Source of the DNA: Deltaproteobacteria bacterium
GTDB taxonomy: Bacteria > Desulfobacterota > GWC2-55-46
Length of the DNA: 64,000 bases
Assembly (NCBI GenBank): GCA_016218105.1
Contig: JACRET010000005.1
Coordinates: 1 to 64,000 of the forward strand
Direction of reading: 5' to 3'
Below, one piece after another: positions 356-10,804 of the stretch. Under the pieces are notes generated by a model. The model ran no database searches. It had not been told where the DNA came from and was given only the letters and a program-made list of their open reading frames with translations. How positions within the stretch are numbered: position 1 is the stretch's first letter; every line of letters starts with the position of its first letter. A program made the translations under genes and the position numbers.

Positions 356-1768
356 TCATTCCGTGAATTTTCTCCGGTTAATCCGCTTATTGAGCGCCTG
401 TCTCGTGATACCAAGGAGAGACGCGGCTATCCCTTGATTGCCGTTCGCTATTTCAAGCGCCTTTGAAATAAGCATATCCTCCATGTCCTTAAGTGTCGGA
501 AAGTGGCTTGGGCTGTAGCTTAGGGTCTCCTCCTCGGCCGCGTGCTCCCCTTTAACCAGGCGCTCCTGTCCTATTATGTCCTTGAAACTCTCCGTCGAAA
601 GCACCCCGCCTTTGTGTCTCGCCACGGCGTCATAGACCATCGCCTGCATCTCCCTGACATTGCCCGGGAAATGATATGTAGACATGAGCGTCACAAGCTC
701 AGGGGGCGGCGTCGGCTTTTTCTTTTTCATCGACCTTGCCGCTTCAATGAGAAAATGGTTAAGGAGGAGCGGTATATCGTCGCTCCTGTCGCGCAGAGGC
801 GGAATGTTCACCTGGTGGGCGCGGAGCCTGTAGTAAAGATCTTTACGGAACTTGCCGTCCGCGATGAGCTTCTGCAGGTCGCGGTTTGTCGCCACGACGA
901 TCCTTACATCGCTTTGCTTCGGCACGTCGGAACCGAGCGGATAATACTTCTGCTCCTGAAGAAGCCTCAAGAGCTTTACCTGCGAGGACTCGGTCGTATC
1001 GCCTATTTCATCCAGAAAGAGCGTGCCGCCGGCTGCCTGCGCTATAAGGCCTTCCCGCGCGTCTTCCGCTCCCGTATAGGCGCCCTTCTTGTGTCCGAAG
1101 AGGGTATCGGAGAACATCGTATCGTCCAGGCCCGCCACGTTTACCGCGACAAACCCGCCCCTCCTCTCGCTTATGTCGTGTACCGCCCTGGCGAAGAGTT
1201 CTTTCCCCACCCCGGTCTCGCCGATGATCAATACCGGCTGCTGGGTCTCGGCGATGACCTCGACATACTGGAATACGGCACGCATCTTCTTGTTTACGGT
1301 AATGATGGAAGAGAACGCGTCCTCCTTCTCAAGCTCGCCCTGTAGGAGACGCCTTTTAAGGGATGACACCTCCGTCCGGAGGGCGGTCAGCTCCAAAGCC
1401 CGCCTTATCGACGACTCAAACCTGCTCTTCTCTACAGGCTTCACAAGGTAGTCAAATGCCCCGGCTTTCATGCAGGAGACAGCCATCTCTATTTCGTTGA
1501 CCGCCGTCATTATGATGACCGGAACCAGCGGGTGAAGGTTGTTTATCTCGTTCAACAGCTCGCTCCCGGAAAGATGGGGCATTGAGAGGTCGAGCACTAC
1601 GGCCGAGACCTCGTGATGCTCCAAAAAGGGCAGTACCTCCCGGCTGTCGTCGATTGTCTGCACCTGTTTTATGCCATAGCTCCTGAGCATCACGCTGAAG
1701 GACTTAAGTATCTGCGGTTCGTCGTCTACAAGAAGTACCGGAAGAGGCAAATAACCAGATCTTTTCAT
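356..1768 (-). CDS. NtrC-family sigma-54-dependent response regulator
   Basis: A 470-residue cytoplasmic transcription activator, normal length for the NtrC family. A receiver domain covers about 8-125, with acidic pair D15/D16, predicted phospho-acceptor D60 and K110. The AAA+ domain runs about 150-380 with Walker A GETGVGKE (183-190) and a sigma-54 contact loop GAYTGA (229-234; the usual GAFTGA with F to Y, a tolerated variant). A Fis-type helix-turn-helix forms the last ~45 residues. I chose the ATG at 1768, preceded by AAAGG; a GTG at 1813 in the same frame has no Shine-Dalgarno sequence. It is the last gene of a minus-strand set after cheR and a hybrid kinase, its likely phospho-donor. 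The target genes are not evident. Confidence 0.93.
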   Translation of the reverse strand: MKRSGYLPLPVLLVDDEPQILKSFSVMLRSYGIKQVQTIDDSREVLPFLEHHEVSAVVLDLSMPHLSGSELLNEINNLHPLVPVIIMTAVNEIEMAVSCMKAGAFDYLVKPVEKSRFESSIRRALELTALRTEVSSLKRRLLQGELEKEDAFSSIITVNKKMRAVFQYVEVIAETQQPVLIIGETGVGKELFARAVHDISERRGGFVAVNVAGLDDTMFSDTLFGHKKGAYTGAEDAREGLIAQAAGGTLFLDEIGDTTESSQVKLLRLLQEQKYYPLGSDVPKQSDVRIVVATNRDLQKLIADGKFRKDLYYRLRAHQVNIPPLRDRSDDIPLLLNHFLIEAARSMKKKKPTPPPELVTLMSTYHFPGNVREMQAMVYDAVARHKGGVLSTESFKDIIGQERLVKGEHAAEEETLSYSPSHFPTLKDMEDMLISKALEIANGNQGIAASLLGITRQALNKRINRRKFTE

Positions 1769-1948
1769 GAAAACCTTTTTAACGATTTTAGATTTCAAGA
1801 CGAAAGCCGCCACGGCAACGGGCCTGAGTATGAATTAAGGAAACTTATACAAAACTCAAGGATAAAAGTAAACCATTAGATTGAATACGGGAAATGAAAG
1901 CAGGCCCACAGGGGGTCAGAGCAGGTTGTTTTTCACGCGTATTTCAGA

Positions 1949-4861
1949 CTAAAAAATAAGCCTTGATATCATGTCATGCAGCTGGTCTACGGTGAACGGC
2001 TTATTCAGGGAGAGGTTGCCTGTCTCCTTCAAAAAACGCTGCGTCTCTTTACTAAGGCTGTCGCCTGAAATAAATATGATCTTTTTCTGGGACTCAGGCC
2101 TGATCTTTTTGACCTCGTTGTAAAATCCCCTTCCGTCCAGGCCGGGCATCTTTATGTCGCTTATTATAATGTCGTAATCATTTTCCTTGAGCTTACGGAG
2201 GGCCTCGTCGCCTGATCCGGTTTTTTCCACCTTGAAGCCCGAATAGGTGAGCGAATCGTGCAGGAGATCGAGCACGATAGGCTCGTCGTCGAGTATCAGC
2301 GCCTTAAGCCCCTTGATCCGCGCCTTTACCGGGTCTATCTTGAAACCAAAAGCCTCGCGTATTTCCTGCGTGTCCGTCCTTATAAGCCCCGTCACGGGAA
2401 GCTCCACCACGAATACGGTGCCCATCCCGAGGGTGCTTGAGGCGTATATGGTGCCCCCGTGCTCATTGATAATGCCGTATGAGATGGAAAGCCCCAGCCC
2501 GGTACCCTTGCCGACACCTTTGGTAGTGAAGAACGGGTCGAAGATCTTGTTTGCTATCTCATCGGACATGCCCTTGCCGGTATCTTCGAATTTTACGATG
2601 ATCTTGCCTTCGCAGTGCCTGCTCGATATCCTGATCTTTCCGCGCTCTCCTTTTTCCTTTATAGCGTCCCTGGCGTTATTTATAAGGTTCAAAAAAACCT
2701 GATGTATCTGGTCGTCATCGAGCATTGTCGGAGGTATGGATTCGTCAAGATCGACCTCAAGGTCGATATTATCGACCTTCAGCTGGTAACCCCTTAAGTC
2801 AATGCTTTCCTTTATGACCTTGTTTATATCCTCATATTTTCTCTCAGGCCTTTTCCATCTGGCGAACGTCAGAAGGTTGTCTATTATTTTTTTGCACCTG
2901 TGAGAGGCGTCATTTATCTTTTTAAGCTTGGATTTCACATCGTCCGGGAACTTATCGTCCAGAAGAAGCTCTGAGAAGCACATGATGCCCGTAAGCGGGT
3001 TGTTAAGCTCATGGGCGACCCCGGAGACAAGCTCTCCCAATGACGACAGCTTATCCGTCTGCATGAGCTTGTTGGTCATCATCCTCTGCTCTGTAATATC
3101 CTTGATATAGACCACGGCCCTCTTGGGGTCTTCGTTTTCGTTAACGGAAGGGTATATATGCCATGTGAAGACCTTTCCGTCCTGGGTGGTCATTTCCGCC
3201 TCGACAGGGGTCAACATGTGTATGGACTTTTTTATCGGGCAGTTCCTGGGCTGTTCCATCCCGAGTATCTTGTATATCTTCTCGCCTGTAAGGGCTGATT
3301 CGCTTATCCTGAATTTATCCATAAAATGCCTGTTTGCCTCAAGCACCCTGTGGCCGTAATCGACAAGGAGAATGTAATCCGTGATGCTGTCATATATGAA
3401 CCTGAGCTTCTCCTTGGCGCTCTTTATCTCTTCCTCTTCCTGCGTGATTATCCTGTTGGCCCTTTGGAGCTCGATATTTTTCCTGTCCAGGTCTTCGTTC
3501 AGGAGCTTTAGCTCCTCGTTTATGGCATGAAGCTCCTCGGTCTGGCTCTGGGTCTCCTCGTAGGCGACTTCAAGGCTTTCGTTCGTGATCTTAAGCTCCT
3601 CATTCAATTCTATGAATTCGCGGTTTTTCTCCTCTATTTCCCTTAGATAGCGTTCCTTCTCCTCTTCCCTTTTGCTGACACCGTCCATCATCGAGTTAAA
3701 AGCCCTGGCGAGCATTCTAAGCTCGTCCCTGGTCTCGACCGAATCCACGTTGACCCTTACCTGCAGGTCTCCTCTTGCGAACTCCCCAATCTTTTCTTTT
3801 AACGATTTAAGAGGCCTCGTGATCTCGGATGTAGACACAACGGCCGCAAAGAGCGAAACCGCAAGCCCCAGAATGGTTATTATAATAATGATCTTCTGGG
3901 TCTCTTTCTGTATCTCCCACAGCTTCTCTTTCGAGATACCCACGTCCAGGGAACCGATTATCTTGCCTTGCGCGTCCCTTATCGGCTCGAATACCGAGAT
4001 GAACGTCATGCCCGGCATCGACCATTCGCCAAATACCGGCTTACCGGCTTTTACAACCGGCAAAACCGTCTCCGGGATCGCTGTCCCCTTTATGCTCCTT
4101 CCTGAGCTGTCGACCAGGTTCGAGGCGATCCGCACGCCGTTTACGGAAATGGTGGTAAAAAGGCCAGGTATCTTATTGGCGATAGTCTCGGAGATGTAGT
4201 TGTCCTCGTTCAGGACATCCCCTGTTATTATCGCCCCTATCGGGCGCTGCGAATCGCTCAGCACAGGGGTCACGACCATTAACGCTATTACGGCGCTTTC
4301 TTTTTCAGCCTTTGGGTTCTGGTTGGCGGTTTCCGGGGTGGCCGCCTCGTCAAGGAACCTTTTGCCGTCGAGCTTCAAAATACTTTTTTCGATGAGCTCG
4401 CTTGATATCCTTGGCTCTCCGCTGTCCAGTGAGGCTTTCACGGACCCGTTCAACTCAAGCCTGTCCCCTGAAACATCGCTATTAAGCCTTGCTATCACCC
4501 TTTCGTTCTCATCGACTATGATCCAGATGTCCACATAGGGGCGCATCTCTTTCCATCGGGTTATCATCTTCCTTAAATATTGCTTGTCACCGCGTGAAAT
4601 GGCGCGCTTTATCTCCTCCATGGAAGCCGCCTGGAGCATCCCGTAGCGCATCTGGTCGCCGCGGACGTAGTACTCCGTCCATGCGGACTTAAGCCCCATG
4701 TTTATCTTTTCCTCGGCCTCTTTCGTCAGCCTCGAATCTATGACCTTGTAAGAGATATAGGCCAGGAGCAGCATCGGAATAAGTATTACGGAAAGAAAGA
4801 CTATGGTGAGCTTGAAGCCCATAGTGCGATTGGAGAAATATCTTATGAAAGACCAGTTCAT
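1949..4861 (-). CDS. Membrane-bound hybrid sensor histidine kinase (Cache-like sensor, HAMP, coiled coil, PAS, HK, receiver)
   Basis: A 970-residue kinase. The order is TM helix about 17-38, a ~285-residue extracytoplasmic region resembling a Cache/double-PAS sensor, TM about 325-346, HAMP about 347-400, a long Glu-rich coiled coil about 395-490, PAS about 490-600, HisKA with phospho-acceptor H617 in the motif AHELNNP, HATPase_c with GKGTGLGL, and a C-terminal receiver with predicted phospho-site D902. The ATG overlaps the cheR stop (ATGA), so the two are translationally coupled. The coiled coil (repeats such as NEEL and ITNESL) resembles the linker in CheB-CheR-PAS kinases. The kinase probably phosphorylates the downstream NtrC-type regulator; the ligand is unknown. 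Confidence 0.93.
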   Translation of the reverse strand: MNWSFIRYFSNRTMGFKLTIVFLSVILIPMLLLAYISYKVIDSRLTKEAEEKINMGLKSAWTEYYVRGDQMRYGMLQAASMEEIKRAISRGDKQYLRKMITRWKEMRPYVDIWIIVDENERVIARLNSDVSGDRLELNGSVKASLDSGEPRISSELIEKSILKLDGKRFLDEAATPETANQNPKAEKESAVIALMVVTPVLSDSQRPIGAIITGDVLNEDNYISETIANKIPGLFTTISVNGVRIASNLVDSSGRSIKGTAIPETVLPVVKAGKPVFGEWSMPGMTFISVFEPIRDAQGKIIGSLDVGISKEKLWEIQKETQKIIIIITILGLAVSLFAAVVSTSEITRPLKSLKEKIGEFARGDLQVRVNVDSVETRDELRMLARAFNSMMDGVSKREEEKERYLREIEEKNREFIELNEELKITNESLEVAYEETQSQTEELHAINEELKLLNEDLDRKNIELQRANRIITQEEEEIKSAKEKLRFIYDSITDYILLVDYGHRVLEANRHFMDKFRISESALTGEKIYKILGMEQPRNCPIKKSIHMLTPVEAEMTTQDGKVFTWHIYPSVNENEDPKRAVVYIKDITEQRMMTNKLMQTDKLSSLGELVSGVAHELNNPLTGIMCFSELLLDDKFPDDVKSKLKKINDASHRCKKIIDNLLTFARWKRPERKYEDINKVIKESIDLRGYQLKVDNIDLEVDLDESIPPTMLDDDQIHQVFLNLINNARDAIKEKGERGKIRISSRHCEGKIIVKFEDTGKGMSDEIANKIFDPFFTTKGVGKGTGLGLSISYGIINEHGGTIYASSTLGMGTVFVVELPVTGLIRTDTQEIREAFGFKIDPVKARIKGLKALILDDEPIVLDLLHDSLTYSGFKVEKTGSGDEALRKLKENDYDIIISDIKMPGLDGRGFYNEVKKIRPESQKKIIFISGDSLSKETQRFLKETGNLSLNKPFTVDQLHDMISRLIF

Positions 4862-5664
4862 CGCGCCACCTTCTTTCTAAAGACGTTCAGCCTCTCGCCG
4901 ACCGGAGAGTACCTGTGGGCGAACGATGGGGGAAGCACCTCGGCTTTTCCAAGCACGATAATGCCCCCTGGCCTCAAGGAGTAATCGAGTTTTTCAAAGA
5001 CCTGTTCCTGGAGGCTCTTATTGAAATATATAAAGAGGTTCCTGCAGAAGAGTATCTGTACGCCTGATATAGAGGGGCTCCCGACAATGTCGAGCACACC
5101 GAACTTGACGAGGTTCCGTATGTTATATTTGACCTTGTATTGCCCGTCAGCCTTGAAGAAGTACTTCTCAAGTATATCCGGAGGCACGTTCTTGAGGGAC
5201 TCTTCCCTGTACTGGGCCTTACGGGCCTGATCCAGGGCTTCTCCGTCTATGTCGGTAGCGAACACCTTGGTGTGCTTCACCGCATCCGTGGTAAGGCACT
5301 CGGAAAGCAGTATGGCCGCGGAATACGCCTCCTCGCCATAAGCACAGCCGCAGCACCAGACCTTGAGCACGGTTTCCGAGAAGTTCGTCTTTATTATACC
5401 GCAGAGCTCCCCGAAGACCTCCGGCTCCCGGAAGAATTCGCTGACCTTTATCGTCAGATTTGAAAAAAGCTTTTCATATTCGTGCGGAGTATCGTTAAGA
5501 TATTGGCAGTATTTTTTATAGGAATGGATATCGAGACAGGTAAGCCTTTTGGATACCCTCCTCATGATGCTGGACTTCTTATAATTGCGGAAGTCCCACC
5601 CTTTTTCATGATAGATCTTTTCAAGGAGCATCGGGAGATCCCCTTCGCGGTCTTTTTTAAACAT
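4858..5664 (-). CDS. CheR-type protein-glutamate O-methyltransferase
   Basis: SAM-dependent methyltransferase of the CheR family, which methylates glutamates on coiled-coil signalling proteins. Visible features are the basic N-terminal helical domain (SSIMRRVSKRL), the SAM-binding motif GCAYGEEAYS, FATDID, and the CRNLFIYF motif near the C-terminus. From the ATG at 5664 the product is 268 residues, the usual CheR size. In-frame upstream starts at 5700 (ATG) and 5727 (TTG) would add a poorly conserved tail of up to 21 residues. It is the first gene of an operon with a hybrid kinase and an NtrC regulator. No chemoreceptor, CheA, CheW or CheB lies in the window, so the coupled kinase is the natural candidate substrate (inference). 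Confidence 0.9.
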   Translation of the reverse strand: MFKKDREGDLPMLLEKIYHEKGWDFRNYKKSSIMRRVSKRLTCLDIHSYKKYCQYLNDTPHEYEKLFSNLTIKVSEFFREPEVFGELCGIIKTNFSETVLKVWCCGCAYGEEAYSAAILLSECLTTDAVKHTKVFATDIDGEALDQARKAQYREESLKNVPPDILEKYFFKADGQYKVKYNIRNLVKFGVLDIVGSPSISGVQILFCRNLFIYFNKSLQEQVFEKLDYSLRPGGIIVLGKAEVLPPSFAHRYSPVGERLNVFRKKVAR

Positions 5665-5864
5665 ATAGTCAGCTCTTGTCGATAATACAGGGAGTATCAT
5701 TCTAACATTTTTAATGTATCCATTCAAACCAATAATTAAAAGACGCTATCACTTTGAATTTCCTGCATATTTCAAAACCCTCCTTTACGGACGGGCGGCG
5801 TCCCGATTCCGGGCGCCCGGTACGCCTTCAAATTCTTCAAGCATTATGCTATCCTTAGGTCTAT

Positions 5865-8800
5865 ATGGACATCTCCGCGTTACTTAAGGCAGTAATCCTT
5901 AATATTAAGGCGAAAGACCATGAAACCGTATTAAATGAGATGACACGCAGGCTCCTGCCCGAAGGCACGCCTGCGGAAGAGAAGGCCTTCTGCGACCTCA
6001 GGGACCACGAGTCCGTAGAAGGCATGCTCACCGGCACGGATTCCGCGATCTTCCATTGCCTTTCCGAAGAGGTCAAGGACACCTCCATAGCCCTCGCCAT
6101 ATCAAGACGGGAATTGCCTCACCCCGCGAAAAAAATAAAAGTCAGGCTGTTCTTCCTGATAATCTCGCCTCTGAAAGAGAGCGGAACCCACCTTCAGCTC
6201 CTCTCTAAAATAGAAGGCATGCTCCTTGACCGGGCCCTGCACCACGCCATCATGAACGCGCGAAGCGAACCGGAAGTGAGAGATGTGATCAAAAGGGCGG
6301 AGACGAGCGCGCGGTCGCTCTACATACCCCTGCCCCGCGAAGAGGTCTTCGGGGAACTCGGGTCTCAGCCCGTGGGACTGACCGAGGCCGCCGCAGGCGA
6401 GCGCCTGAAACTCACCGGCCCCAACTCAATAAAGAGGATCGAGAAGGGCACCCTTTTAAAAGACTTCCTCTACAATATGTTCCTTAATCTCTTCGCGGTA
6501 CTGCTCTGGGCGGGCGGCTTCATGTCCTTCGTAGCGGGTATGCCCGAGCTTGGGTGGGCGATATTCCTCGTCATCGTAATAAACGCGTCCTTCAGCTTCT
6601 GGCAGGAATACAAGGCTGAGCGGGCCGTCGAGGCCCTTAAGAACCTGTTGCCGAAAAAAGTAAGGGTAATACGGGACGGCAGGGAGAGGGAGATCGACGC
6701 GGCCTTGCTGGTTCCGGGCGACCTTATAAAACTCGCGGAAGGCGACAGCATCCCGGCTGACGGCAGGCTGGTCGAAGCCGAGGCCATGCGGATAGACAAT
6801 AGCGCCCTCACAGGGGAGTCCCGCCCCATCTATAAGGTCTCCGAACCTCTCGCCGACGGCAAGGGCTTTATCTGGACCGAAGTCCCGAACATGGTATTCG
6901 CCGGCACCACTGTCCTCTCCGGCTCAGGCAACGTGGTCGTGACCGCTACCGGCATGGATACGGAGATAGGCAGGGTAGCTTATCTTACGCAGGCGATAAA
7001 GCCCGAGATGAGCCCGCTTCAAAAAGAGATAAAAAACATAACGAAGGTAGTGACAATGATAGCCGTCACGCTCGGGGTGCTGTTTTTCTTCCTGGGTTAC
7101 TCCTTCGCCGGGCTTACATTCGCGGAGAGCTTTATCTTCGCCATAGGAATAATCGTCGCGAACGTCCCCGAAGGGCTCCTGCCGACGGTATCCCTGTCGC
7201 TCGCGATGGGCGTTCAGCGGATGGCAAGCAAGAACGCGATAGTAAAAAAACTCTCGGCCGTGGAGACGCTCGGGAGCGCCACAGTCATATGCACGGACAA
7301 GACCGGAACCCTTACCAGAAATCAGATGTGCGTAACGAGGCTTTTTGTCAACAACAAGATGATCGAAGTTACCGGCACCGGCTATGAGCCGGACGGGGCG
7401 TTCGTCCATGACGGAAAGAAACTTTCAAAGGAGGAACTTGCCTCCGAAGGCATCCGCAAGCTCCTCCTGACAGGCGCCCTCTGCAATAACGCAAAGCTCA
7501 GTCCCCCATCGAAAGACTCGCGGCTCTGGTCGATCTCCGGCGACCCCACGGAAGGCGCGCTCCTGACCGCCGCCGCCAAAGGGGGCATCGACATGGATTC
7601 GTTGAACAAAGAGATTACCCGCGTGGCCCACCTGCCTTTTGAGCGGATAAGGAAGATGATGACCACCGTCCATGAAGGCGGCCCCGATTACCCGAAAGGA
7701 GGGCGTAAGGCCGCCGCTTTTATAAAGGGGGCTCCTAAGGAAGTCCTTTCCCTATGCACGTCCGTATTTATAAACGGCGCAACCGCCCTTCTTACAGACA
7801 GGGAGAGGGAAGAGATATTAAAAGAGAACGACTTGCTTGCCTCGAAGGGATTGAGGATACTCGCTTTCGCCTCGCGGGAGATGGAACGGAGGGGTTCTTA
7901 CGCAACCGGAGAAGTTGAAAGGGAACTGACTTTTATCGGGCTCATGGCGATGCTAGATCCCCCCAGGCCCGAGGTGAAGAGGGCTGTTAGCCAGTGCCAC
8001 ACGGCAGGCATAAAGGTCGTGATGGTCACGGGCGATTACGGCCTGACGGCAAAGGCGATAGCCGGGCAGGTAGGGATCGCCCAAGATGCCAGAGTCATAA
8101 CAGGAGAGGAACTGGGCAGGTTTTCAAAGCATGAGCTTCAGGAAATATTAAAGAAAGGCGAGGTTATATTCGCGCGCGTTGCGCCTGCCGACAAGCTAAA
8201 GGTCGTCGAGGCGCTCCAGAAAAACGGCGAGATAGTCGCGGTCACGGGCGACGGGGTAAACGACGCGCCTGCCTTGAAGAAGGCTGACATAGGGGTTGCC
8301 ATGGGGCTTCGCGGAAGCGACGCCGCAAAAGAATCGGCTGAGATGGTTTTGGCGGATGACAATTTTGCGTCCATTGTCGATGCCATAAAGGAAGGACGGG
8401 CCGTCTACGCCAACATAAAAAAGTTCGTCACTTATATATTCGCGTCCAACATACCGGAGATCGTCCCTTTCATAGCATTCGTCATATTCAAGATCCCTCT
8501 GCCCCTTACCGTGATGCAGATACTTGCCGTAGACCTCGGGACAGACGTATTTCCAGCCCTTGGCCTCGGGGTCGAGCCGCCCGAGGAAGGCGTGATGAAC
8601 CAGCCGCCGCGCCCGAGGGGCAAGAGGCTCCTTGATTTCAAAACCTTATCAAGGGCGTATCTCTTCCTTGGGCCGCTTGAGGCGGCGCTGGCGCTATCCG
8701 GCTTCTTCTTCGCGTATTGGCTGAGGGGGTGGTCGCCTGGGACAGGCATGGAAGAAGCAGGCATGCTTTACGCGACCGCCACAACGATGAGCTTCGCGGG

Positions 8801-9080
8801 TATCGTCGCCTCGCAGGTCGGGAACGTCTTTGCCTGCAGGACGGAGAAAGAGTCGGTCTTTAAGGCCGGTTTCTTCAAGAACAGGTTCGTGCTCATAAGC
8901 ATTGCCGTGGAAATATCGCTTATGCTCATCCTTATATACACGCCTGTTCTTCAGGATGTATTCGGGTTTGCTCCGTTGTCGCTCTATGAATGGGGCTACC
9001 TCGCCGTATTCCCGGTAATAATGCTCGCGGCTGACGAGACAAGGAAGGCCATGCTCAGGAGAGGGGCTATCAGGGCTTAG
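5865..9080 (+). CDS. P-type cation-transporting ATPase with N-terminal PTS EIIA-like domain
   Basis: A 1071-residue protein. Residues ~155-1065 form a P2-type ATPase: TGES at 316-319, the ion-site motif NVPEGLL at 433-439 (Na/K- and H/K-ATPase-like), phosphorylated D478 in DKTGTLT, and GDGVNDAP from 795, with about ten membrane helices. Residues 1-150 match the fold pattern of the fructose/PtsN-type EIIA domain: a helix-strand start, a histidine (H64) at the position of the phosphorylated His of PtsN, a hydrophobic strand, then THLQLLSKI and EPEVRDVI near its end. Family knowledge supports active ion pumping across the inner membrane; the transported ion is not certain. Control through the EIIA-like domain is inference. 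It is divergent from the cheR operon and seems monocistronic. Confidence 0.9.
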   Translation: MDISALLKAVILNIKAKDHETVLNEMTRRLLPEGTPAEEKAFCDLRDHESVEGMLTGTDSAIFHCLSEEVKDTSIALAISRRELPHPAKKIKVRLFFLIISPLKESGTHLQLLSKIEGMLLDRALHHAIMNARSEPEVRDVIKRAETSARSLYIPLPREEVFGELGSQPVGLTEAAAGERLKLTGPNSIKRIEKGTLLKDFLYNMFLNLFAVLLWAGGFMSFVAGMPELGWAIFLVIVINASFSFWQEYKAERAVEALKNLLPKKVRVIRDGREREIDAALLVPGDLIKLAEGDSIPADGRLVEAEAMRIDNSALTGESRPIYKVSEPLADGKGFIWTEVPNMVFAGTTVLSGSGNVVVTATGMDTEIGRVAYLTQAIKPEMSPLQKEIKNITKVVTMIAVTLGVLFFFLGYSFAGLTFAESFIFAIGIIVANVPEGLLPTVSLSLAMGVQRMASKNAIVKKLSAVETLGSATVICTDKTGTLTRNQMCVTRLFVNNKMIEVTGTGYEPDGAFVHDGKKLSKEELASEGIRKLLLTGALCNNAKLSPPSKDSRLWSISGDPTEGALLTAAAKGGIDMDSLNKEITRVAHLPFERIRKMMTTVHEGGPDYPKGGRKAAAFIKGAPKEVLSLCTSVFINGATALLTDREREEILKENDLLASKGLRILAFASREMERRGSYATGEVERELTFIGLMAMLDPPRPEVKRAVSQCHTAGIKVVMVTGDYGLTAKAIAGQVGIAQDARVITGEELGRFSKHELQEILKKGEVIFARVAPADKLKVVEALQKNGEIVAVTGDGVNDAPALKKADIGVAMGLRGSDAAKESAEMVLADDNFASIVDAIKEGRAVYANIKKFVTYIFASNIPEIVPFIAFVIFKIPLPLTVMQILAVDLGTDVFPALGLGVEPPEEGVMNQPPRPRGKRLLDFKTLSRAYLFLGPLEAALALSGFFFAYWLRGWSPGTGMEEAGMLYATATTMSFAGIVASQVGNVFACRTEKESVFKAGFFKNRFVLISIAVEISLMLILIYTPVLQDVFGFAPLSLYEWGYLAVFPVIMLAADETRKAMLRRGAIRA

Positions 9081-9266: not shown

Positions 9267-9761
9267 ATGACAGATCAGATAAAAACAAAGGGTTCGGTAA
9301 CGATAGTACTGTTCAGCGGAGAGATGGACAAGGCCATAGCGGCCTTCGTCATCTCGACCGCCGCCGCCTCGATGGGCATGAAGGTCAATATTTTCTTCAC
9401 CTTCTGGGGTCTTAACGCGATAAAAAAAGAGGGCGGGCTCATAAAGGGCCAGAACTGGATGCAGAAGATGCTCAACATCATGAACTACGGGCACGCCAGG
9501 AAACTTGCCCTTTCCAAACTCAATATGATGGGCATGGGCCCCGCTATGCTTAAGACGATGATGTCCCAAAAAAAAGTACCTTCCCTGCATGAGTTCATAA
9601 AGATGGCCAGCGCGCTCGGGGTAAAATACTATCCCTGTGAGATGTCCATGTCCGTGATGGGGCTTAAAAAAGAAGACTTCATAGACGAATGCCAGGACGT
9701 TATCGGAGCGGTGTCTTACCTGGCCATCGCCAAGGAATCGACCATAAACCTTTTCATATAG
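9267..9761 (+). CDS. DsrE/DsrF/DrsH-like sulfur-relay family protein
   Basis: A 164-residue protein of the DsrE2 (DrsE_2, peroxiredoxin-like) family. The N-terminal SVTIVLFSGEMDKAIAAF strand-helix and the AAAASMGMKV region are typical. One conserved cysteine lies in the motif YYPCEMSMSVMG, where family members carry persulfide. A hydrophobic helix spans roughly residues 22-45. The ATG follows AGGAC. A TusA gene begins 11 bp downstream, the usual partner of DsrE2 in sulfur-carrier exchange, so the pair probably passes sulfane sulfur between carriers. No dsrAB or hdr genes are visible here. Confidence 0.88.
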   Translation: MTDQIKTKGSVTIVLFSGEMDKAIAAFVISTAAASMGMKVNIFFTFWGLNAIKKEGGLIKGQNWMQKMLNIMNYGHARKLALSKLNMMGMGPAMLKTMMSQKKVPSLHEFIKMASALGVKYYPCEMSMSVMGLKKEDFIDECQDVIGAVSYLAIAKESTINLFI

Positions 9762-9772
9762 GGGTATTTGAA

Positions 9773-10009
9773 ATGGACTTTCATATAAACAAGACGCTTG
9801 ACGCCAGGGGGCTCAGCTGTCCGATGCCTTCGGTCAAGACCGCTCTCGCCCTGGAGGGCATGGAGGCCGGACAGATACTGGAAGTGCTTACGGACGACCC
9901 GGTTTCAAAAAAAGACCTCCCTGTATGGGCGCAGTCTACAGGCAATGAACTCCTCTGCATCAAAGAAGAAGCCGCGTCCGTAAAGATATATCTTAAAAAG
10001 GCATCATAA
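9773..10009 (+). CDS. tusA: TusA-family sulfur carrier protein
   Basis: A 78-residue protein. The signature is LDARGLSCPMP, with the persulfide-carrying cysteine before PMP, followed by the beta-alpha pattern ILEVLTDDP. The start at 9773 gives the standard TusA length and lies 11 bp after the DsrE2-like gene; an upstream in-frame extension runs into that gene and is not believed. It acts in the cytoplasm as a sulfur shuttle, feeding thiomodification, molybdenum cofactor formation or sulfur energy metabolism. Which of these applies cannot be told from the window. Co-transcription with the upstream gene is very likely. Confidence 0.9.
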   Translation: MDFHINKTLDARGLSCPMPSVKTALALEGMEAGQILEVLTDDPVSKKDLPVWAQSTGNELLCIKEEAASVKIYLKKAS

Positions 10010-10039
10010 CCCCCGCTCCTCTATCTTGAAAGGCATGAG

Positions 10040-10804
10040 ATGCCAAGGGTCTACCACCTCGACCTCGACAAAAGAGCGATACAGGGCGCGAAGATCGCCC
10101 TCCTTCCGGGAGACCCCGGCAGGGTCGGCGCTATCGCAGACGCAATCGCCGTGACCTACGGCTCCTCATCACTTGAACTCGCCTCAAAAAGGGAGTTCGT
10201 AACCTTCATCTCTGAATTCAACAACAACAAAGTCCTGGTGACATCGACCGGCATAGGCGGCCCCTCGGCCTCCATAGCCGTAGATGAGCTCGCGCAACTC
10301 GGGGTAAAGACCTTTATCAGGGTAGGCACCACGGGTGCGATACAGGACTACATAAAAAAAGGCGACTGCGTGATCACTACCGGCTCGGTCAGGTTTGACG
10401 GCGCATCCACCCATTACGCCCCGGTGGAATACCCTGCCGTTGCGGACCACGCCGTTACGGGGGCGCTTATAGAAGGCGCGAAGAAGACCGGGGTCAGATA
10501 CCATGTAGGCGTCTCCGCCTCATCCGACACTTTTTATCCTGGCGAAGAGAGGAAAGACTCTTACAGGGAATACACCTTGAGGAGGTTCAGGGGCCTGACG
10601 GAAGAGCTCAAGGCCCTGCATGTCCTGAACTTTGAGATGGAATCGGCCACGGTTCTTACGCTTACCGCCTCGATGGGTTTAAAGGGCGGGGCTGTCACAG
10701 GGGTCGTAAACCGTGGCTCTACCGGAAAGATAACAGACCAAGCGCTTAAACTGGGCGAAGAGAGCGCCATAAGGGTAGCCGTGGCGGCGCTGGCATTCTT
10801 ATGA
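10040..10804 (+). CDS. udp: Uridine phosphorylase
   Basis: A 254-residue enzyme of the nucleoside phosphorylase family that splits uridine with phosphate into uracil and ribose-1-phosphate. It resembles E. coli Udp along its length: the phosphate loop LLPGDPGRV, the central STGIGGPSASIAVDELAQLG, RVGTTGAIQ, SVRFDGAS, ASSDTFYPG and the nucleoside-binding NFEMESAT near the end. The start at 10040 has AAAGG about 8 bp upstream. It lies 30 bp after tusA on the same strand and may share its transcript, though no functional link is evident. Confidence 0.93.
   Translation: MPRVYHLDLDKRAIQGAKIALLPGDPGRVGAIADAIAVTYGSSSLELASKREFVTFISEFNNNKVLVTSTGIGGPSASIAVDELAQLGVKTFIRVGTTGAIQDYIKKGDCVITTGSVRFDGASTHYAPVEYPAVADHAVTGALIEGAKKTGVRYHVGVSASSDTFYPGEERKDSYREYTLRRFRGLTEELKALHVLNFEMESATVLTLTASMGLKGGAVTGVVNRGSTGKITDQALKLGEESAIRVAVAALAFL

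Follow-up and report, generated by a model that had tools for sequence, protein, structure and literature searches.

The window analysed here is a stretch of 64,000 nucleotides, and the region spanning 5865–9080 on its forward strand was found to contain a gene for a protein of 1071 amino acids, in which an N-terminal PTS EIIA-type-2 domain is joined to a P2C-like cation-transporting P-type ATPase, as judged from the open reading frame, Pfam and full-length homologues. The frame is uninterrupted through its 1071 codons, and its ATG is the first one after an in-frame stop. The EIIA domain (PtsN/Fru-type) covers residues 1–148 (5865–6308, forward strand) and was mapped with Pfam family PF00359, an AlphaFold2 model and Foldseek, and the P2-type ATPase covers residues 155–1066 (6327–9062, forward strand), as defined by domain profiles and by its nearest solved structures, which are Na,K-ATPase alpha chains. 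When the full protein was searched against Pfam, PTS_EIIA_2 (PF00359) matched residues 9–144 with an E value of 8e-16 and 58.7 bits, the cut-off being 27 (E = 1.7e-17 for the domain alone), and residues 157–1062 matched Cation_ATPase_N, E1-E2_ATPase, Cation_ATPase, Hydrolase and Cation_ATPase_C in that order. The N-domains of all 29 homologues tested likewise matched PTS_EIIA_2 and no other Pfam family. The covalent fusion of an EIIA domain to a pump was thereby confirmed.

The immediate flanks of the fusion gene contain no PTS or K+ gene. Divergent to it, at 356–5727 on the reverse strand of the window, lie genes for a response regulator of the sigma-54 activator type, a large hybrid histidine kinase with the architecture Cache-HAMP-PAS, and a methyltransferase of the CheR type, and 3' of it, at 9267–10804 on the forward strand, lie DsrE-like, TusA-like and nucleoside phosphorylase genes, which are syntenic in relatives. 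Across genomes of the family, CheR, kinase and sigma-54 activator genes regularly lie on one side of the fusion gene, and DsrE-like, TusA and nucleoside phosphorylase genes on the other. About a dozen related genomes keep the kinase-CheR pair next to the fusion, and this synteny suggests a regulatory circuit that may be linked with the pump.

The P-type pump and its ion-site motifs

The pump has the DKTGT, TGES and GDGVND motifs and the core with Cation_ATPase_N and Cation_ATPase_C that mark P2-type (HAD-IC) ATPases. The catalytic phosphorylation motif DKTGT, with Asp478, is encoded at 7296–7310 (forward strand) and was located from the sequence and the alignment of fusions. Among solved structures, the pump is closest to Na,K-ATPase alpha chains (E = 6e-167), with SPCA, the Listeria Ca pump and SERCA ranking behind. 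The top NCBIfam pump models were those for IIC (Na,K/H,K) and PMR1 Ca ATPases, each scoring under its cut-off, and the best-matching subfamily model was TIGR01106 (Na,K/H,K-ATPase alpha, IIC) with 642.6 bits against a cut-off of 946.1. On these scores, the pump is assigned as P2C-like and outside the curated IIC subfamily. A sequence-only reading of this DNA had described a complete P2-type ATPase; all the P2 domains and motifs are indeed present, but the term P2 was too loose for a pump that is P2C-like (Na,K-ATPase-like).

The alignment of fusions located the cation-binding motif PEGLL in TM4 (7167–7181) and, together with PDB matches, the Na,K-ATPase-type motifs SNIPEI in TM5 (8445–8462) and DLGTD in TM6 (8532–8546), all on the forward strand. 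NVPEGLL of TM4, SNIPEI and DLGTD are kept across the fusions, apart from minor differences in the group of genome G265. TM8 carries Q984 and N987 versus Gln and Asp in Na,K-ATPase, and the Glu of TM9 is retained. Residues at these positions bind Na+ and K+ in Na,K-ATPase. Because the ion-site motifs are of the Na,K-ATPase type, the pumped ion is probably monovalent, and the exchange of Na+ or H+ for K+ appears to be the most likely activity of this P2C-like pump.

Fold and active site of the EIIA domain

A PtsN/EIIA pattern had been noticed earlier in residues 1–150, and a structure prediction to be compared with PtsN had been proposed. The AlphaFold2 model of residues 1–160, built with 29 homologues as input, reached a pLDDT of 83.7 and a pTM of 0.80, and its best Foldseek match was the EIIA-Ntr structure 2a0j (TM 0.80 by target length, E = 9e-9). 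The predicted fold is thus EIIA-Ntr-like, and the pattern, which also scores above the PF00359 cut-off, stands. Further Foldseek matches included other PtsN and EIIA-Mtl structures as well as cytosolic domains of SLC4 anion exchangers. Designed helical repeats, which came up as top PDB relatives of the N-domain in a single-sequence phmmer search, were rejected as helix artefacts; a profile search ranks EIIA-Ntr first. The best EIIA models in NCBIfam were FruA- and PtsN-type, both under their curated cut-offs, and the PtsN equivalog TIGR01419 gave 28.4 bits against a cut-off of 138.7. By its profile scores, the fused domain is therefore assigned as an EIIA_2 domain and not as a PtsN orthologue.

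In the profile alignment, His64 (codon 6054–6056, forward strand) falls on the AIPH histidine of EIIA-Ntr, the residue phosphorylated in PtsN/EIIA, and His109 (codon 6189–6191, forward strand), within the segment THLQLL, falls on the second active-site histidine; the positions picked out by the sequence-only reading were thus correct. The two histidines were kept in 27 of 27 sequences of the first homologue alignment and are identical in 31 of 31 fusions from several families, distant classes included, whereas elsewhere the domain has diverged. Five of the 160 N-domain columns are invariant in these 31 fusions, His64 and His109 being two of them, and the chance of both histidines falling among the invariant columns if placed at random is ~0.001. 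Loss of the aligned His64 from close homologues, which had been named as grounds for giving up the assignment, was seen neither in the 27 sequences nor in the 31 of the wider clade. In the clade of the window protein, the active-site Arg of PtsN (Arg57, E. coli numbering) is replaced by His48 (codon 6006–6008, forward strand, placed by alignments) and the Pro preceding the catalytic His by Phe63, so that the PtsN-like Arg and Pro-His motif is absent from this clade and present in the fusion of genome G117. With both residues replaced, phosphotransfer in the window subclade could be weakened or lost. The profile alignment also placed His-Glu at the Arg position in 3oxp, an EIIA-type protein of solved structure, and the change of Arg to His therefore need not abolish function.

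The reading that we favour, and hold to be rather probable, is that HPr~P would phosphorylate the fused EIIA domain and so gate the pump in cis. According to the main rival, which we consider unlikely but deserving of weight, the EIIA fold has been kept as an unphosphorylated regulatory or docking module, the histidine pair would have a metal, anion, small-ligand or interface role, and the pump would be run by a ligand or partner with no part for the PTS. The replacement of Arg by His and of Pro by Phe in the window clade fits such a module, as do the SLC4 anion exchangers among the Foldseek matches, which carry EIIA-like folds without PTS function. The invariance of both active-site histidines in all 31 fusions argues against it, and the substitution of Arg by His loses some of its force by recurring in 3oxp.

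Distribution of the fusion and the PTS of its hosts

An architecture search across genomes, as the sequence-only reading had proposed, was carried out with the full protein over 59 related genomes. The EIIA-bearing fusion was found to recur in 29 of them: the family of the host contributes 20, out of 30 genomes covered there, and the other 9 lie beyond that family. The same architecture is present at full length with 62–75% identity in many related genomes, and the homologue alignment gave identities to the window protein of 41–65% for the EIIA domain and 64–77% for the pump. Most of the named records among the relatives are metagenome genomes from groundwater, labelled "Deltaproteobacteria" or "Nitrospinota". 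The fusion is also carried by the closed genome G265 (3,282,536 bp), and a class-wide search around it found fusions in 8 of 29 genomes. The N-domain was absent from the plasmid records searched. Genus g6 of the same family is without the fusion, and two g6 genomes have 47–48% identical pumps lacking the EIIA domain. In a maximum-likelihood tree of the ATPase part, all 31 fusions lie on one side of one branch (support 99/92, 200 of 200 bootstraps), and their clade adjoins EIIA-less P2 ATPases of the same phylum. The simplest reading of this tree would be one ancient fusion event.

The putative phosphate donors are encoded by the host. Its genome has one HPr and one EI, in an operon with the order lptA-lptB-rpoN-hpf-ptsN-hprK-rapZ-EIIA/B/C/D-Man-HPr-EI, and a canonical PtsN is the only EIIA_2 protein that it has besides the fusion; the check for EI, HPr/NPr and other EIIA proteins proposed earlier was thus answered in the affirmative. 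In this groundwater lineage, the rpoN-ptsN-hprK-rapZ operon at G000:C46:26985-38864 (L033 2986-14865) thus holds all four components of a mannose-type PTS (EIIA, B, C and D) together with HPr and EI. Among the relatives, EI was found in 55 of 59 genomes and HPr in 54 of 59, and this presence of both proteins in nearly all hosts speaks against a module working outside the PTS. In two fusion genomes rated complete (G048 and G010), neither EI nor HPr was detected. A true loss of HPr and EI in G048 was discounted, as its contig stops inside the operon, after the EIIA-EIIB-Man genes. G010, which is rated 100% complete and has the fusion with both histidines, gave no match for EI, HPr, HprK/RapZ or PtsN, a result compatible with an assembly gap as well as with a genuine loss. 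A fusion kept alongside no detectable EI or HPr would suit the unphosphorylated module.

In the G117 fusion, the active site is canonical throughout (RE...FPHAR...LHLQ), and the protein scored 105.5 bits with PTS_EIIA_2, on par with true PtsN. The EIIA_2 domain of this fusion is the only one found in the genome, which is ~95% complete and so leaves a small chance of a ptsN elsewhere. The PTS operon of G117 (G117:C77, L176 145-1678) has the order hpf-hprK-rapZ-EIIMan-HPr-EI; ptsN is absent between hpf and hprK, which are separated by 46 bases, and the remaining operon is intact. In G151 of the same genus (G151:C250, L180), a genome in which no fusion turned up, ptsN occupies exactly this gap between the two genes. 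The G117 domain shares 28–38% identity with free PtsNs of the phylum and, with identity this low, is no recent relocation of a neighbouring ptsN. Thus, the fusion has apparently replaced ptsN in this one lineage, and a sole EIIA_2 domain borne by the pump, with ptsN missing from the operon, points to a real coupling with the PTS. The rival of an unphosphorylated module is weakened by this swap and by the invariant histidines, and it is kept alive by the Arg and Pro replacements and by G010.

A further and quite improbable possibility is that the fused domain acts chiefly within the PTS chain itself, competing with PtsN for HPr~P or relaying phosphate or a signal from the membrane to other partners, and that the pump is mainly an anchor or reports the ion state to the PTS in reverse signalling. 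The fusion of G117, being the only EIIA_2 protein there, would need to assume the other roles of PtsN, which is in keeping with this possibility; against it, the ATPase retains all its catalytic and ion-site motifs and evolves slower than the EIIA domain, which indicates that pumping is under the stronger constraint. The reading that the fusion arose by accident, or through an error in the gene model or the assembly, and has no linked function, for which only the general fragmentation of metagenome assemblies could be cited, is highly improbable and already refuted by conservation, given the unbroken frame in the window, the fusion shared by 29 of 59 relatives and by a closed genome, and the invariant active-site residues.

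A proposed PTS input to the pump and its relation to known systems

The steps of the favoured reading, gating of the pump by HPr~P, can be outlined as a model whose phosphorylation, pumped ions and sign of regulation we infer. The N-termini of P2-ATPases are cytosolic, and the fused domain can therefore meet HPr~P. EI charged by PEP would hand its phosphate to HPr, His64 of the fused domain would receive it from HPr~P, and the phosphorylation state would shift the contact of the EIIA domain with the cytosolic domains of the pump and so alter its activity. The covalent domain would then be the in-cis counterpart of the control of K+ transport by free PtsN. As a guess from the action of PtsN on TrkA and YcgO, the unphosphorylated domain may restrain the pump, and high PEP and phosphorylation may release it. 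Among the known targets of free PtsN, the K+/H+ antiporter YcgO is bound and inhibited by the unphosphorylated protein (PMC11808508), and KdpD is also bound by PtsN (PMC9239096). The AlphaFold2 model of the full-length protein (pTM 0.53) was too poor for domain placement, and an EIIA docking site on the pump was not visible in it. The fusion is old and conserved, and it is probably a built-in switch tying ion pumping to the energy state of the cell. We see about even chances for the broader proposal that a bacterial lineage has wired the PTS covalently into a Na,K-ATPase-like pump and that, in at least one genome (G117), where the pump bears the only EIIA_2/PtsN-type protein, PTS-Ntr output and monovalent cation pumping would reside in one molecule.

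The action of PtsN/EIIA-Ntr on K+ transport in proteobacteria (TrkA, KdpD and YcgO) resembles the present case in the EIIA family and fold, the position of the phosphorylatable His and the monovalent cation transport target (PMC11808508, PMC9239096). PtsN is free and acts in trans, whereas here the domain is covalently attached to a primary pump and its active-site Arg and Pro are changed in the window clade. Na,K-ATPase and H,K-ATPase alpha chains and bacterial P2C-like ATPases share with the fusion the P2 pump, the PEGLL/SNIPEI/DLGTD ion-site motifs and the best solved-structure matches; in the fusion, by contrast, an EIIA domain of 150 amino acids replaces the short N-terminal tail, and the Asp of TM8 is Asn987. 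To our knowledge, sensing and control of cation balance by PTS-Ntr are known solely through loose interactions of PtsN with its partners. A conserved fusion of EIIA with a primary P-type pump ties regulator to target, so that the link between the PTS and potassium becomes testable in one purified protein.

LacS-type sugar symporters are non-PTS transporters with a fused EIIA-Glc-like domain, the state of which is set by HPr~P. Their domain has the glucose-type EIIA fold, is C-terminal and sits on a secondary sugar transporter, with no ATP-driven ion pump. EIIA domains fused to secondary transporters are thus already known from LacS, while the open-access literature searched yielded no account of a P-type pump that bears one. 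In the SLC4 anion exchangers (band 3 and AE2), too, the cytosolic N-terminal domain of an ion transporter is EIIA-like by Foldseek, but they are eukaryotic secondary transporters with no PTS, whereas the bacterial domain described here retains the phospho-His position. Its fusion would give a Na,K-ATPase-like pump a regulatory input of prokaryotic type.
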